From positions 1 to 37,803 of the forward strand of contig QCGF01000009.1 in the NCBI GenBank assembly GCA_003278175.1: 37,803 bases of DNA, given 5' to 3'. Position 1 is the stretch's first letter. Each line of letters opens with the position of its first letter. The notes beneath the pieces were generated by a model. The model saw only the letters and a program-made list of their open reading frames with translations. It had not been told where the DNA came from and searched no databases. Positions 27,113 through 35,165 of this stretch are shown piece by piece. Position numbers and translations under genes: made by a program. Source of the DNA: Prochlorococcus sp. AG-363-P15. Its GTDB lineage: Bacteria; Cyanobacteriota; Cyanobacteriia; PCC-6307; Cyanobiaceae.

Positions 27113-28846
27113 TCAATCTCCTAAATAACCACGAGGTGTAACAAAGAATCCATCCTTTAAAAGACTTTTGCTATTACCTATCAATAAAATAGATAACATA
27201 TCTACTTTCTCTTGAGGGAAGTTTTTAAGAGTGTAAAAAAGAACTTTTTCTCCAGGTCTCCCAAGTTGATATCCCAAAGCGACTGGAGTTTTAACTGACC
27301 GGTATTCTCTAATTATATTTAATGCCTCCTCAAGTTGCCAATTTCGATCTATAGATCTTGGATTATAGATAGCCATAACAAAATCTCCTATCAAAGCTCC
27401 CTTCAATCGATTCTTAATTACTTTCCAGGGAGTTAATTTATCGCTAAGACTTATTGTACAAAAGTCATTCATAATTGGCGCCCCCATCCGAGCAGCTGCC
27501 ATTTGGACGGCTGAAATTCCGGGATGAATATTAAACATCGGTCGATCCACCTCTGGTTGATCTAGCCAAAGCTCCAAAGCAAGACCACCCATTCCATAAA
27601 TGCCACTATCTCCAGAAGAAATAAGCGCAACACGAACCCCTTGCATTGCCAAATCAAGAGCCTGCTTAGAACGTTCCATCTCAAGAGTTAATTGACCATC
27701 TAAACGAACTTGATCAATGCGTCGCATTGGCTCCAGCAGATCTAAATAGCGTTTATAACCAATCCAAACTGCACTTCTTGCCAAAGCAGAACGCGCGTCA
27801 TTCGTTAAGTAGCTCAAATCACCAGGTCCACTCCCAACCAAATGCAGTTCGCCTCGCCTTGGAGCAAATGGTTGCTTTGCTTCAGCAATAGCAATAGTTG
27901 CACCTCCTCTTTCATTAGGTAATGGGGAATAAATATCCTTCTGGCGTAATAACCTGCCATTTTTACCTGCCATCACAAGGGCAGATGCTTCAGCCACTGA
28001 AGGGGTTCCTGTAGCACCTTTTACGACTTCAGAAGGGTTAGGAACAAGCACTTTTGAAAGCCTTTGCGCATTCAGAAAATGCAAATGCCAATCATGCCGC
28101 TTCGCCAATGCCAACAAGGCAGGTTCATCTGCCTTTAAATCAATACTTGCAAGACCTGACACAGCCTCTTTAGCCAAACAAAGATCTGCCAAGGCACTCT
28201 CTAATGCTCTTTCTAAAAGACTTTCACTAGTGTTTCTCTCACAACCAATCCCAATCCAAAGTGTTTGAGGGTGCCAAGAGCAATCATGACTTCTCTTTGG
28301 TCCAATACTAAAACTATTAACTTTGGATGAATTCTTTCTTTTCTTGACTGCTAAAGACTTTTCAGCAGCCTTAGATGCTCGCCATAAATCAGTACCTGAA
28401 AACTGTTCAACATACAAATTTTCTTGACTTGCTTGGTTCAACATCAATTCATGCCAAGAGGACTTGTGTCCACCCCTTTGCCAACCCCAGGCCTCTCCAA
28501 AACTATCTAAAGGTAGATATTCTTCGCTATTTGTAGCTCCAGTAATTACAGGGTTACCTCCTAATTCCTCTGCCAAAAGTTGCGCCCAGCTCTCCGCACC
28601 AGCCTTATGCCCGCCCACAAGAGGAACAATATTCAAAGCCTTGGGATCAAGGACAATGACCGCAGGATCTTCATCCTTACTTGCCAACAAAGGTGCAACT
28701 AGTCGAGTTACTGCGCCTATGGCGCCAACAACAATAAAAAGCCCACCAGAATTCCAATTTTTGCTAAATATTTCGAACGCAGAGCCCACCAACAAGTCAT
28801 CTGGCAATGGGTCTAATTGTGCTGCTGCTCTTGGGGGCAGAGCCAC
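27113..28846 (-). CDS. cobJ: CbiG/CobE-CobJ fusion: precorrin-3B C17-methyltransferase
   Basis: This protein acts in corrin ring contraction for (pseudo)cobalamin synthesis. From the GTG at 28846 it has 577 residues in three parts. The CbiG N-terminal domain has VVGAIGAVTRLVAPLLASK and DPAVIVLDP. A CbiG C-terminal/CobE domain has LWIGIGCERNTS, DLKADEPALLALA and TGTPSVAEASAL. A CobJ/CbiH SAM methyltransferase domain has GELHLVGSGPGDLSYLT and SSGDSGIYGMGGLALE. The frame is open upstream to 28984 with family-like sequence (KIALGLSVASWTLLKRL) but no ATG, GTG or TTG. The true start may therefore be a rare codon such as CTG 28954 or ATT 28918. The fusion type is known in picocyanobacteria. Confidence 0.93.
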   Translation of the reverse strand: MALPPRAAAQLDPLPDDLLVGSAFEIFSKNWNSGGLFIVVGAIGAVTRLVAPLLASKDEDPAVIVLDPKALNIVPLVGGHKAGAESWAQLLAEELGGNPVITGATNSEEYLPLDSFGEAWGWQRGGHKSSWHELMLNQASQENLYVEQFSGTDLWRASKAAEKSLAVKKRKNSSKVNSFSIGPKRSHDCSWHPQTLWIGIGCERNTSESLLERALESALADLCLAKEAVSGLASIDLKADEPALLALAKRHDWHLHFLNAQRLSKVLVPNPSEVVKGATGTPSVAEASALVMAGKNGRLLRQKDIYSPLPNERGGATIAIAEAKQPFAPRRGELHLVGSGPGDLSYLTNDARSALARSAVWIGYKRYLDLLEPMRRIDQVRLDGQLTLEMERSKQALDLAMQGVRVALISSGDSGIYGMGGLALELWLDQPEVDRPMFNIHPGISAVQMAAARMGAPIMNDFCTISLSDKLTPWKVIKNRLKGALIGDFVMAIYNPRSIDRNWQLEEALNIIREYRSVKTPVALGYQLGRPGEKVLFYTLKNFPQEKVDMLSILLIGNSKSLLKDGFFVTPRGYLGD

Positions 28847-29076: not shown

Positions 29077-30147
29077 CTATTGCTTTAACTCTCTAGGGAA
29101 AATTAATTCATAGTTAGCAACTGACGGGTTCTGGATCTCCTCATTAAAAGAATTGTTCGGAGAATTTCTTGTACCTATAACATTGTCTTTGCTTAAAGAT
29201 ATTGCCTTCAGCTTTTCATCTTCCCCTAGAAACTTTGCAAGTTGGTCCTCATTCAGTTGAGGAAGTGTCCAGAGTGGTTTCCCTATTTCAGAGTCCTCTA
29301 AAATAATTAATTGACTATTGAAAATTGGACAAATAGGCTCACCCAAGTTATCCAATAATTCAAAATGCAAAACTTTCTCAGTTGAGGGGATTCCTTCAAC
29401 CCAAATAGCTTCCTCTCTATCCAAAAGAAAGCTATCTTCATTAATGCTTACTTTCAAACGCCATCTATCATCGTCATTTTTTAAACCTTGAATAGGCGCA
29501 TTCCAAATCAAGGAATCAATTAAAACTGGCCCTAAGGGACGTTGATCAGGTGGCCTAACAACTGTTAACCAAGTTTGATCAATATTAGGTTGTGCTCCTG
29601 GAATTTTTCGAAAAAAATGTATTCTTGATTGGACATGTGAACCAGGCACTTTTAATGCTTCTCCCCAGGGGTATGCAAGGTAAGCCGCCATTCGATGACT
29701 TCCTGGGCTTAATCCATTCATAGGGATGACAATTTTATCCCCAATTGAATTAGTAATTCGAATGGGTAGTTCATTATCTAACTGAACAACTAAATGTGGC
29801 CCTAACCCAACTTGAGGGTCTTCAATAAGTGGCCAGTCCTTTAGTAAAAAGACTAGCTCCCAGGTATCATTCAGTCTTGTTGTCAGGATCTCTTCTTGAG
29901 TGGGCGATTGAATAGTTAGTTGTGGGTGATAATTACTTAATCGAGACTTGATTTGGCGAACAGCAGCTGGAGGAGGAACTTCCTTTAAACTCCCTGACAA
30001 GGATTCAAACTCTAAAAATGAATTCTCCGAGCTTCCTGACAAAGCTGAAGAATTAAATGGGCTTGCTGATATTGCAATTGCTGGGCTGACCGAAAAGCAA
30101 AAAACAAGAATTAGGATTACAAGTCGAAAATCATTTATTCTGAACAT
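29077..30147 (-). CDS. Exported protein of unknown function
   Basis: The 356-residue protein has a signal peptide (hydrophobic residues 8-22, probable cut after AIA near residue 26). The mature part begins with a serine-rich stretch. It has no other membrane segment, so it should be periplasmic, lumenal or outside the cell. Segments such as DTWELVFLLKDWPLIEDPQVGLGPH and SPGSHRMAAYLAYPWGEAL suggest beta-rich immunoglobulin-like folds, but I recognise no family by name. It is divergent from psaA across a 487-base region. I recall similar unnamed proteins next to psaA in related genomes, but cannot check this. Confidence 0.85.
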   Translation of the reverse strand: MFRINDFRLVILILVFCFSVSPAIAISASPFNSSALSGSSENSFLEFESLSGSLKEVPPPAAVRQIKSRLSNYHPQLTIQSPTQEEILTTRLNDTWELVFLLKDWPLIEDPQVGLGPHLVVQLDNELPIRITNSIGDKIVIPMNGLSPGSHRMAAYLAYPWGEALKVPGSHVQSRIHFFRKIPGAQPNIDQTWLTVVRPPDQRPLGPVLIDSLIWNAPIQGLKNDDDRWRLKVSINEDSFLLDREEAIWVEGIPSTEKVLHFELLDNLGEPICPIFNSQLIILEDSEIGKPLWTLPQLNEDQLAKFLGEDEKLKAISLSKDNVIGTRNSPNNSFNEEIQNPSVANYELIFPRELKQ

Positions 30148-30634
30148 CAGCGTTACATCGATTGAAATTTCAAAAAGAGATGCAGCAAATCACAAGGGAA
30201 ACAAAAGTCTTTTGCCTTTGTTAAAGACTTCAAGTTTATTCAGAGTTTTGAAGCAAAGCATAAACAAAAGTCAAAAGTGATTAATGGCAGTCGCTTTACA
30301 GAAAAATTTTCTCTAGCTCAATAATTCCAAAACCACCCATCGAGATGAGTTTAACGACGAATTGCTCTGCCAAAAACCCTGGTGAAAATAACCAGGGGTA
30401 GAACATTTGTTACGTGCCTAGGTAGTAACCGGCTCGCGGTTCTAAGCTTTCAGGATGCGGACCCCAATTAGGGAACCCTTTAAAGCGTGATAGCAAGGCT
30501 AAACCCTTGCCATCACTGAATCCATAAGTGAAATCTACTCATTTCAGTAGTTATTTACTTCTGGAAAAAACAAGCCTTTTGCTTGTTTCTGCGGTGGAAA
30601 TCCACCTGGACCCCATACCTCGAGGAACCTCTCG
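30148..30634 (+). promoter_or_regulatory. Hairpin-rich psaA upstream region and leader
   Basis: The 487 bases before psaA contain no gene on either strand. From about 30370 they are dense in inverted repeats. These are CCCTGGT/ACCAGGG (30377-30397), a GTTAC...GTAAC dyad centred on CCTAGG (30409-30429), and a 30-base hairpin at 30487-30516. Next come alternative stems among ACTGAA, TGAAAT/ATTTCA and CTACT/AGTAG/TTCAGT (30515-30550), then AAACAAGC/GCTTGTTT (30568-30588) and GGTGG/CCACC (30593-30606). The psaA ATG follows a GAGGAAC context. Light-regulated psaAB promoters are known in cyanobacteria; which of these elements act is inference. No exact HLR1 (RpaB) direct repeat was seen. Confidence 0.6.
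30487..30516 (+). promoter_or_regulatory. Strong hairpin in psaA leader
   Basis: GTGAT-A-GCAAGG, loop CTAAAC, CCTTGC-C-ATCAC: eleven base pairs with a single A-C mismatch after the fifth. No T-tract follows, so it is not a terminator. It ends 118 bases before the psaA start. Confidence 0.7.
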
Positions 30635-32914
30635 ATGACCATTAGCCCACCAGAAAGTGGGGAGAAAGCGAACGCTTCAGGAGTTCCGACTCCATATAAC
30701 CAGCCTGTCGACAGGGATCATGTCCCTGCTGATCTTGAAAAAACCGGCAACCCCGGTTTCTGGTCAAGAAGCCTCGCCAAAGGACCCAAAACCACAACCT
30801 GGATTTGGAATCTCCACGCTGACGCTCACGACTTTGACACCCATATAGGTGATCTTGAAGAAACAAGTCGAAAGATCTTTTCGGCCCACTTCGGTCATCT
30901 AGCAATCGTCTTCATCTGGATGAGCGGTGCCTTTTTCCATGGCGCTCGCTTCTCTAATTACTCCGGTTGGTTAGCTGACCCAACGCACGTGAAACCAAGT
31001 GCGCAGGTTCTCTGGCCAATTGTCGGGCAAGAAGTGATGAATGGTGATGTGGGGGCCGGTTTCCATGGCCTCCAGATCACCTCAGGTATTTTCCAGATGT
31101 GGAGATCTTGGGGCATCACCAGCGAGACACAGTTAATGGCATTAGCCATTGGTGCTGTTGTGTTTGCGGGTCTAATGCTCCATGGAGGTATTTACCACTA
31201 TCACAAGGCTGCTCCAAAACTGCAGTGGTTCCAAAAAATTGAACCAATGCTTCAGCACCATCAGATTATTCTGTTTGGTTTGGGATCCATTGCTTGGGCA
31301 GGACACCTAATTCATATAGGTGCACCTGTTGCTGCAATGATGGATGCCATTGATGCTGGTTCGCCTCTTGTAGTTGACGGCGTAACCATTGCAAGTGCTG
31401 CAGACATTACGAATCTGTCTACAAGGCTCTGTGATCCACAAGTTGCTAGTCAAATCTTCCCTAGCCTTGGTGGACGCACAGTTGAAAACTTCTTCACCCT
31501 TAACTGGTGGGCCTTCAGCGATATTCTTACCAACAAAGGTGGCTTAAATCCTGTAACAGGAAGCCTCTGGATGACAGACATCTCACACCATCATTTGGCA
31601 TGGGGTGTATTTGCCATCTTTGGCGGCCACATGTGGGGTAATAGCGTTCATGGAATGGGACACAGAATGAAGGAAATTATGGATGCCCATAAAGGCGATC
31701 CAATCCTTTACCCTGCTCCTAAAGGCCACGAAGGCATTTTTGAATTCTTAAGCAATAGCTGGCATGGTCAACTAAGTATCAACCTTGCCATGATTGGTTC
31801 AGGAAGCATTGTTGTTGCACATCATCAATATGCTTTACCTGCATACCCATATCTATCGCTTGATTACCCAACAGTCCTTGGTCTATTTACCCATCACATG
31901 TGGATTGGTGGATTAATGATTTGCGGAGCTGCGGCTCATGGTGGTATTGCCATGATTCGCGACTATGACCCTGCACTTCATATAGACAACGTTTTAGATC
32001 GAATACTCAAGGCGCGCGATGCAATCATCAGTCAATTGAATTGGGTTTGCATGTTTATTGGCTTCCACAGCTTCGGTCTTTATATCCATAACGATGTAAT
32101 GCGTGCTCTGGGACGTCCTTCAGACATGTTCAGCGACACAGCCATCCAATTACAGCCAGTCCTTGCTCAGTGGGTTCAAAATCTCTGGAAAGGTTCTGTA
32201 GGAACAGGCGATCTTGTTGGAGCTGGACCAATCCCCGGTGCAGTTAGTGATGCTTTCTCAATTCCTTTGGGAACAGCGGACTTAATGATCCACCACGTCC
32301 ATGCATTCACTATCCACGTCACCTTGCTCATCCTTCTCAAGGGTGTTCTCTATGCAAGAAGTTCACGCTTGATACCTGACAAGGCAAAGCTTGGATTCCG
32401 CTTCCCTTGTGATGGACCGGGTCGTGGAGGTACATGTCAGGTTTCATCTTGGGACCATGTCTTCCTAGGTCTCTTCTGGATGTACAACTCCCTCTCTGTA
32501 GTTATCTTCTATTTCTCATGGAAGATGCAAAGTGATGTGTGGGGACTCACTGGTGGAAACTTTGCTCAAAGCTCCATCACAATTAATGGTTGGCTACGTG
32601 ACTTCCTCTGGGCACAATCCTCACAGGTTCTCACTGGTTATGGCCAAGCAACAGCTGGCTACAGCCTTTTATTCCTAGGAGCTCACTTCATTTGGGCTTT
32701 CAGCCTGATGTTCCTATTTACAGGCCGCGGTTATTGGCAAGAATTGTTTGAGTCCATCATCTGGGCCCATAGCAAGCTCAAGTTGGCTCCAACAATCCAA
32801 CCTCGCGCACTTTCCATTACTCAAGGCCGTGCTGTGGGTGTTACCCACTTCCTCCTCGGTGGAATAGTTACCACCTGGGCCTTCTTCCATGCCCGCCTTA
32901 TCGGGCTCGGCTGA
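30635..32914 (+). CDS. psaA: Photosystem I P700 apoprotein A1
   Basis: PsaA forms the photosystem I reaction-centre heterodimer with PsaB and binds P700, A0, A1 and the FX cluster. The 759-residue protein matches the family over its length with eleven expected membrane helices and many conserved histidines ([23 protein letters not shown]). The FX ligands are Cys592 and Cys601 in [12 protein letters not shown]. Compared with what I recall of other PsaA sequences, the loop before [12 protein letters not shown] is short ([20 protein letters not shown]). The N-terminus [11 protein letters not shown] is typical of Prochlorococcus and Synechococcus. psaB follows after 22 bases, so the two are co-transcribed. 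Confidence 0.99.
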
Positions 32915-32936: not shown

Positions 32937-35165
32937 ATGGCAACGAAATTTCCTTCGTTTAGTCAGGGTCTGGCACAGGACCCAACAACCCGTCGTATTT
33001 GGTACGGCATAGCCACGGCTCACGATTTCGAGAGCCACGATGGCATGACCGAGGAGCGTCTTTATCAAAAGATCTTCGCAACACACTTCGGTCATCTTGC
33101 AATCATTGGTCTTTGGGTTGCTGGAAACCTGTTCCATATCGCCTGGCAAGGCAACTTTGAACAGTGGGTTACTGACCCACTGCATGTTCGCCCGATTGCT
33201 CACGCAATCTGGGACCCACATTTTGGTCAAGGCATTACTGATGCCATGACCCAAGCTGGTGCAAGTGGACCAGTAAACATTGCTTATTCAGGTCTTTACC
33301 ATTGGTGGTACACCATAGGTATGCGCACTAATGAGCAGCTATTTCAAGGTGCGATTTTTATCAACATCTTGGTTTGCTGGCTCTTATTTGCAGGTTGGTT
33401 GCATCTTCAGCCAAAGTTCCGTCCTTCTTTGGCTTGGTTCAAAAATGCTGAAGCACAACTAAACCACCACATTGCTGTCCTATTCGGTTTCAGCAATATC
33501 GCCTGGAATGCTCACTTAGTTCATGTAGCAATCCCTGAATCTCGTGGACAACACGTTGGATGGGATAACTGGCTAACAGTTCTTCCTCATCCAGCTGGAC
33601 TAGCCCCATTCTTTACAGGTAATTGGGGAGCATATGCTGGAAATCCTGATTCACTTGAACATGTTTTTGGCACCTCTCAAGGAGCAGGTACTGCCATTTA
33701 CACTTTCATGGGTGGATTGCATCCAGGAACTCAATCTCTTTGGTTAACAGACATTGCACATCACCATCTTGCTCTTGGTGTAGTGATGATTGTTGGTGGC
33801 CATATGTATCGAAATACATTCGGTATTGGCCATACCCTTAAAGAGATCACTGAAGGGCACAATACTGATCATCCAAATGACCCTCATAAAGGCCATTTTG
33901 GAATCAATCACAATGGAATCTATGAGACAGTAAATAACTCTCTGCACTTCCAGCTCGGTCTTGCTCTTGCTTCTCTAGGAACTGTTTGCAGCTTAGTTGC
34001 TCACCATATGGGTGCCTTGCCCTCATATGCATATATAGCGAGCGATTACACAACTCAAGCAGCCCTATACACGCACCATCAATACATCGCAATTTTGTTG
34101 ATGTGTGGTGCTTTCTCTCACGGTGCAATTTTCTTTGTACGTGACTATGACCCAGAACTCAACAAAGACAACGTTCTAGCCAGAGTTCTAGGTACTAAAG
34201 AAGCACTAATTAGCCACTTGAGCTGGGTTTGCATGCTTCTTGGTTTCCATACCTTAGGCCTATACGTTCATAACGATGTATGTGTGGCATTTGGTACACC
34301 AGAGAAACAAATTCTGATAGAGCCTGTGTTTGCTCAAGCTCTACAGGCATTTAGTGGGAAAACGATGTATGGAATAGATGCACTACTCGCCAATGCAAAT
34401 AGTGCCGCCACCATCGCTTCTCAACAAATTCCTGGGAATCACTATTGGATGGATATGATCAACGCGTCCGACGCGACAAGTAATTTCCTTCCCATAGGTC
34501 CTGCTGATTTCTTGGTTCATCACGGCATTGCTTTAGGTGTGCATACAACAGCTTTGATCCTTATCAAAGGCGCTCTAGATGCAAGAGGTTCGAAACTAAT
34601 TCCTGACAAAAAGGACTTTGGTTACGCCTACCCATGCGATGGTCCAGGAAGAGGTGGTACATGTGACTCCTCAGCTTGGGACGCAACCTATATGGCTCTC
34701 TTCTGGGCAGTAAATACAATTGCTTGGGTTCAGTTCTACTGGCACTGGAAACACTTAGCCATATGGCAAGGAAACGTTGCTCAGTTCAATGAATCTGGGA
34801 CATATCTAATGGGTTGGTTTAGAGATTACTTGTGGCTTAATAGCTCTCAATTAATCAATGGCTATAACCCATTTGGTGTGAATGAACTTTCTGTCTGGGC
34901 TTGGATCTTCTTGTTTGGCCACTTAATTTGGGCAACTGGATTTATGTTCCTAATTTCCTGGCGTGGTTATTGGCAAGAACTAATTGAAACACTAGTTTGG
35001 GCTCATCAGCGTACTCCAATTGCAAACCTTGTTGGTTGGAGAGATAAGCCAGTAGCACTATCAATTGTTCAGGCTCGACTTACGGGTGTTACCCATTTCG
35101 TAGTGGGAACTGCCATAACATACGCAGCCTTCGTGATTGGCTCAACTGCCGGTAAATTCGGATAA
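32937..35165 (+). CDS. psaB: Photosystem I P700 apoprotein A2
   Basis: PsaB is the second core subunit of photosystem I and also helps dock plastocyanin. The 742-residue protein begins [20 protein letters not shown] and has [19 protein letters not shown]. The FX cysteines are Cys567 and Cys576 in [12 protein letters not shown], and the conserved end [20 protein letters not shown] closes it. The length is normal. It lies 22 bases after psaA and is followed 35 bases later by a strong terminator. Confidence 0.99.

Follow-up and report, generated by a model that had tools for sequence, protein, structure and literature searches.

A probable divergent psaA RNA with covarying hairpins and a predicted masked Shine-Dalgarno sequence in the psaAB leader of a Prochlorococcus-type genome

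We confirm that the leader of psaA in the DNA studied here is a structured RNA with real hairpins, and the comparison with relatives makes it very probable that this leader is a divergent form of the psaA RNA (RF01752), which heads the psaAB operon as its 5' leader in marine picocyanobacteria. Our preferred reading joins this identity to a mechanism in which the leader would limit ribosome loading through a hairpin over the Shine-Dalgarno (SD) sequence and slow the decay of the psaAB mRNA; for the two taken jointly we put the probability at roughly 0.5. For some of the most abundant phototrophs in the ocean, photosystem I is a large expense in iron and protein. A catalogue entry for the psaA RNA has existed since 2010, and the comparison presented here provides a natural series that runs from the full leader to almost none, along which the longest-lasting parts are the promoter element, the SD hairpin and a hairpin that we call T.

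The window, by which we mean the whole 37,803-nt stretch of contig QCGF01000009.1 that was analysed, belongs to an incomplete Prochlorococcus-type genome (57% complete), and the Prochlorococcus sp. single-cell genome AG-363-C20 is among its closest named relatives within the best 80 of 444 psaA loci (99% identity over the 257 residues compared). The psaA open reading frame lies on the plus strand at 30635..32914 (Pfam PF00223), and that of psaB runs from 32937 to 35165. Adjoining psaA is a divergently transcribed minus-strand reading frame of 356 aa (29077-30147) with no Pfam match at E 0.001, and a second minus-strand frame, at 27113-28846, combines CbiG N- and C-terminal domains with a tetrapyrrole methylase domain in what is a cobalamin-synthesis fusion.

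Upstream of psaA, the segment 30455-30637 has a predicted folding energy of -60.6 kcal/mol, whereas its shuffles average -37.1 (sd 4.1); the resulting z-score of -5.8 was reached by 0/200 of them. An earlier note on this DNA had described the entire 265 nt from 30370 to 30634 as a leader packed with hairpins. Folding beyond chance bears this out (z -4.5, 0/200 shuffles), although the bare stem count is only mildly high: there are four perfect stems of at least six pairs where shuffles average 1.6 (16/200 shuffles reach this count) and ten of at least five pairs where they average 6.5 (22/200). The extent given to the leader also needs trimming. It is structured from about 30455, but its first stretch, 30370-30454, folds barely above chance (z -1.6, reached by 19/200 shuffles) and carries a conserved promoter-like block, so that the leader as originally drawn is probably about 85 nt too long and its first part looks like a promoter region. 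Because the opposite strand folds equally strongly (z -5.5), folding by itself cannot pick the strand, and it is homology, promoter and position that assign the leader to the plus one. Nearly all whole-leader folds further contain a CCCAC/GUGGG hairpin within the coding sequence, at about codons 4-10 of psaA (after 30635), which protein constraint alone may explain.

The promoter-like block recurs in every relative sampled. Collapsing of 152 psaA upstream regions left 125 distinct ones, with five loci dropped for having too short an upstream sequence, and all 125 carry an AAC[ACT]TTTGT[AT]AC-type element followed at 24-32 nt by TAnnnT, the element pattern (with small variants) having been written after inspection of the sequences. 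The window's version is AACATTTGTTAC (30402..30413, plus strand), an HLR1-like half-site of which the genome assembly holds no other exact copy. The probable -10 box, TAAGCT, follows at 30443..30448 on the same strand, in keeping with the TAnnnT that stands 29 nt past the element in the window's genus. The first positions of the RF01752 model span the same box, and its description as a -10 box is our own reading. Transcription of psaA probably starts at about 30455, a prediction from the 6-7 nt that would separate the start from the -10-like box. A sigma-70 consensus scan of 30000-30800 returned no promoter (1.2 were expected by chance) because no good -35 is present, and the main texts of PMC5069720 and PMC5607370, in which we sought a mapped Prochlorococcus transcription start, do not contain the word psaA. 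On the minus strand of the same region, 30377-30397 forms a terminator-like hairpin with a T run, weakly similar to the PsrR1 end (E 2.5). We considered whether 30372-30412 might encode, on that strand, an antisense RNA or a relative of PsrR1, and rejected the idea in view of the weak match and a hairpin that is not kept as such in five genus mates.

The hairpins are also backed by covariation. Leaders were taken from the best 80 of the 444 psaA loci and from a genome search that sampled 251 genomes of a family with more members, and two sets were aligned: A2, with all the long low-light leaders but one (28 of 29; L069, almost identical to L067, was omitted), and A3, with 16 short leaders. LLI-like, HL-like and Synechococcus-like leaders stand outside both alignments and were tallied only; all of these group labels are our own, drawn from the order of similarity with the help of a few named strains, and are not formal taxonomy. 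The leader RNA is placed at 30455..30634 on the plus strand by the Rfam match, the alignment with relatives and the fold, its start being predicted. Within it lie three well-formed plus-strand hairpins: P3 (30487..30516; 11 bp, probability 0.99), P4 (30521..30565; probabilities 0.95 and 0.98) and P5, formed by AAACAAGC/GCTTGTTT (30569..30587; probability 0.97). Across the 28 A2 leaders, 33 of the 36 pairs in these three hairpins show changes on both sides, and 78.2% of 958 cells are paired compared with 33-49% when the helices are slid, a control that somewhat flatters them since A2 was aligned by sequence and the helices were drawn on one of its members. On each of five measures, 0/500 shuffles match the observed covariation, with the shuffles ignoring relatedness. 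Compensatory changes among related leaders, the check that had been suggested along with the original observation, are thus present.

The remaining hairpins vary in how much the alignments can say about them. P0, a weak hairpin at the 5' end (30459..30477, plus strand), consists of GG/CC, a 2x2 internal loop and CCC/GGG; in the window its CCC/GGG core has a probability of 0.65 and the outer GG pairs elsewhere. Its covariation is weak: 85% of cells are paired on A2, with 8/500 shuffles as good on that measure and 42-48/500 on the others, and in the 16 leaders of A3 95% are paired with covariation not above shuffles (194/500). The T hairpin, GGTGG/CCACC (30593..30606, plus strand; probability 0.98), is invariant in 28/28 A2 rows, and S2 (30620..30635, plus strand; probability 0.91) pairs the SD with a CTCGA that takes in the first base of the start codon. 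Because T and S2 hardly vary in A2, covariation cannot test them there, and their constancy may reflect sequence needs such as the SD, the start codon or a protein site. The T hairpin is present in all six leaders of the window's genus, 24/24 other low-light leaders, 34/38 Synechococcus-like leaders (L120 counted among them) and 14/16 short leaders, and it is scarce in the LLI-like (1/24) and HL-like (0/17) groups. A possible substitute helix, GCGGA/UCUGC, joins 30457-30461 to 30588-30592 with a probability of 0.72 in the window; in the alignment its 3' word is missing from 3/5 genus mates.

These hairpins bear directly on what the earlier note had made of the region, namely a switch built from three mutually exclusive stems at 30515-30550 together with a weak attenuator at AAACAAGC/GCTTGTTT. 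The words it quoted are all in place (ACTGAA 30515-30520/TTCAGT 30543-30548, TGAAAT 30529-30534/ATTTCA 30541-30546, CTACT 30535-30539/AGTAG 30546-30550, and AAACAAGC 30568-30575/GCTTGTTT 30581-30588), and the three stems do overlap as described. Their competition is another matter: the mean pair probabilities are 5e-8 for ACTGAA/TTCAGT and 4e-6 for TGAAAT/ATTTCA, which are practically absent from the ensemble because the longer P4 wins, and 0.98 for CTACT/AGTAG, which is simply the inner part of that conserved hairpin. On A2, ACTGAA/TTCAGT is paired in 51.6% of 95 cells, with 247/500 shuffles as good and 64% paired when it is slid by +3. A weak covariation signal does favour TGAAAT/ATTTCA (45.5% of 99 cells, 6/500 shuffles, compared with 33-42% when slid), but no leader among the other 27 in A2 carries a full copy of either stem. 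The proposed attenuator is a conserved hairpin, but only UUU follows it, relatives have no U-tract there, and a terminator scan gave no plus-strand site. We give this combination of switch and attenuator almost no credence.

An Rfam scan of the whole window at curated cut-offs returned two tRNAs only, with no riboswitch family among its hits. At a permissive threshold, RF01752 matches 30525-30638; the score of 31.9 bits (E 1.3e-5 in 651 nt) falls short of the curated cut-off, which is 50, and 94 positions in the middle of the model are skipped. All 18 relatives tested match the model from its first position to its last, ten of them above the cut-off (67.8-187.9 bits) and eight at 33.8-43.7 bits; the genus mates score 34-42.5 bits, and the next relatives 43.7 (L016) and 67.8 (L015). 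Because the window aligns with full-match relatives along the leader, we read its short match as divergence, and because it scores below 50 bits we call it a divergent relative by descent and not a full member of RF01752. Among 244 genomes sampled across the phylum, 15 match RF01752, 11 of them above the cut-off, under strict filters that may miss weak cases; 14 of these matches fall inside the window's taxonomic family and one, a weak one, outside. The earlier note knew of no such RNA switch, yet the element belongs to this published and curated family, which Weinberg et al. (2010; PMC2864571) place in the potential psaAB 5' UTR and present as three hairpins, frequently capped by UNCG loops; they propose a role in light regulation as possible and show no function. 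In the open-licence literature that paper is the sole match for the accession RF01752, and a search of the same literature for function tests of the cyanobacterial psaA leader element, judged mostly from listings, found none.

The family itself raises the prospect of a switch of another kind. In full psaA RNAs, P0 overlaps two long-range helices, P1 and P2; T overlaps both the 3' side of P1 and the final hairpin S; and S excludes S2, because the palindrome CUCGAG pairs with CUCGA on either side. The 5'-end GGUCCCC could form P0 with the GGGGCC next to it or P1 with the GGGGUGGCC that precedes the start codon, GGGGCCC could take part in P0 or in P2, and the SD could be held from upstream (S) or from downstream (S2), with a ligand, protein or sRNA shifting the balance between these exclusive pairings. 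The overlaps exist in the sequences, P1, P2 and S fall within the Rfam consensus, 7/28 A2 leaders have 8 or 9 of the 9 P1 pairs and seven have 7/7 P2 pairs, and both states carry weight in L072 (T 0.35, S 0.53) and L018 (T 0.65, S 0.21). Set against this, P1 covariation on A2 does not rise above shuffles (66.8% paired, with slid versions as good), and T and S2 dominate most of the 22 leaders folded. We consider a two-state switch in the family decidedly unlikely, and it hardly applies in the window, where P1 has 3/9 pairs, P2 has 0/7 and S is mismatched. Across the window's genus P1 retains 2-5 of its 9 pairs and P2 0-1 of its 7, and two genus mates share the S mismatch. Most components of a possible switch have thus gone from this lineage, and any switch should be sought in the full-length relatives. 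An evolutionary version, also unlikely in our estimation, would see true switches between P0 and P1/P2, tuning photosystem I synthesis, in the full-length psaA RNAs that low-light Prochlorococcus and marine Synechococcus carry, and would have them dismantled stepwise with genome shrinkage, in the window's genus, in the short-leader group and finally in the HL-like group, the SD hairpin being rebuilt out of different sequence in LLI-like leaders and given up in HL-like ones.

Outside the HL-like group, masking of the SD is a constant feature in our predictions. The window's SD is GAGG (30622..30625, plus strand); for the comparison, an SD was defined as at least four letters of AAGGAGGU, located in each leader separately, and was called masked when at least half of it was paired in a local fold. 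It is predicted to be paired in 104/104 non-HL leaders with an SD of four or more letters (genus 6/6, other low-light 25/25, short 13/13, LLI-like 24/24, Synechococcus-like 36/36), compared with 2/17 HL-like leaders. Four non-HL leaders (L035, L036, L059 and L147) have no SD word of four letters, and the whole-leader fold of L035 leaves the SD region mostly free. Relative to 65-nt shuffles, the mean unpaired probability of the SD is 0.08 vs 0.47 in the genus, 0.08 vs 0.46 in other low-light leaders, 0.13 vs 0.56 in short, 0.39 vs 0.58 in LLI-like and 0.15 vs 0.44 in Synechococcus-like leaders, and 0.42 vs 0.47 in HL-like ones. Since on average 12-25% of shuffles are equally closed in the non-HL groups (42% in the HL-like group), single leaders are weak evidence, and the strength of the observation lies in its recurrence among leaders that are related and hence not independent. 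In the LLI-like leaders (L075-L100) the masking is done not by S2 but by AUUCC/GGAAU, within the last 45 nt before psaA, and two CUCGA copies flank this SD hairpin, pairing together in L099 and L100. The HL-like leaders (L101-L118) keep the promoter element and are otherwise wholly different, without T and mostly without an SD hairpin, and their SD stands closer to the AUG than in other leaders. Phages offer one further case: psaA of cyanophage P-TIM68 (L163, 533-541) starts 9 nt past psaC without a leader RNA. This is the sole phage psaA found (two records, one phage), and we rejected the idea of a phage-borne leader.

Taken together, transcription probably begins at about 30455. Its promoter has an upstream element and a -10-like box that the whole family retains, and the RNA is predicted to fold into a row of hairpins, P0, P3, P4, P5 and T, with S2 coming last and pairing the SD with bases immediately ahead of the start codon and with its first base. 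Such a leader would act post-transcriptionally. By default S2 would hold ribosome loading low, so that loading would require a trans-acting factor or the aid of adjacent single-stranded standby sites, and the upstream hairpins would slow decay of the psaAB mRNA; the window's copy, which lacks P1 and P2, the helices that tie the 5' end to the ribosome-binding region in relatives, and has a mismatched S, would be a set of static hairpins and not a switch. The predicted masking of the SD points in this direction, and we hold the proposed effects on loading and decay tentatively, at slightly short of even odds. Weighing against our preferred explanation are the window's score below the RF01752 cut-off and the HL-like leaders and phage psaA, which do without SD masking or without the leader.

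Two other readings of the leader have to be considered. One is that S2 is an RNA thermometer that melts upon warming to free the SD. Such a thermometer operates in the chloroplast psaA 5' UTR of Chlamydomonas, where a local hairpin masks the SD, and the authors of that work suggest a similar one for cyanobacterial psaA (PMC10639063). Gene and SD-masking layout are shared, but the predicted stability of S2 declines only from -8.5 kcal/mol at 20°C to -6.0 at 37°C and is still -4.3 at 55°C, and the predicted mean accessibility of the SD rises by at most 0.02 between 10 and 30°C in every group, which makes this explanation very unlikely. For one leader of the HL-like group, L109, opening upon heating was predicted, though in a misplaced segment that missed its SD. 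The other possibility is that the leader is the site of an RNA-binding protein that stabilises the psaAB mRNA or places it at the thylakoids. Such a protein would recognise the T loop together with the conserved copies of CUCGA, and SD masking would be a by-product. Constancy of sequence beyond pairing in A2 would fit such a site, as would the presence of CUCGA both upstream of the SD and at the start codon in 24/24 LLI-like leaders each despite their different SD hairpin, but since the copies pair together in L099 and L100 their conservation may be structural. Moreover, the window and two of its genus mates have CTGGA as their first copy (CTCGA is kept in 3/6), and 16/16 short leaders have no first copy. 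An RRM protein, Rbp3, has been tied to photosynthesis mRNAs and ribosomes (PMC13139465; a title cited in PMC12850537), but the former report places it at the 3' ends of photosynthesis mRNAs and not at the leader. On balance we view a protein site as rather unlikely, and limited loading through S2 with slower decay remains the reading that we prefer.

Comparison with known systems places the element as follows. According to a review (PMC13421787), the HLR1 consensus is KTTACAWW-N2-KTTACAWW, with an activating range of -66 to -45. Like photosystem I promoters with HLR1 and RpaB, the window has its element at about -53 to -42 relative to the predicted start, close to that range, and the Synechococcus-like TTTGTAAC is an exact fit to half of the HLR1 reverse complement, with TTTGTTAC of the window showing one mismatch to the reverse-complemented half-site. 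Unlike HLR1 promoters, it has one half-site only and the full 18-bp motif is absent; binding of RpaB there is a guess on our part. A transcription attenuator would have a terminator hairpin with a U-tract, which the window does not, and a riboswitch would have two conserved exclusive folds, where the stems first proposed find no support and P1, P2 and S are degenerate in the window. The closest published working analogue is the Chlamydomonas psaA thermometer, which shares SD masking (predicted in the window's case) but differs in that predictions show no melting of S2 at physiological temperatures. Closest by descent is the psaA RNA itself. The window differs from RF01752 in the long-range helices, which are lost in its genus, in the final hairpin S (CCUCGA/UCGAGG), which has 5/6 pairs with a central mismatch, and in having no UNCG tetraloop among its predicted hairpins, loops that the original description calls frequent and that are therefore not required. 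It agrees with RF01752 in gene and place, lying directly 5' of psaAB and ending at the psaA start codon, and in its internal hairpins P3, P4 and P5. Homology extends along the leader, with the -10-like box, the P0 strands, the hairpins, the T sequence and the SD region all recognisable.
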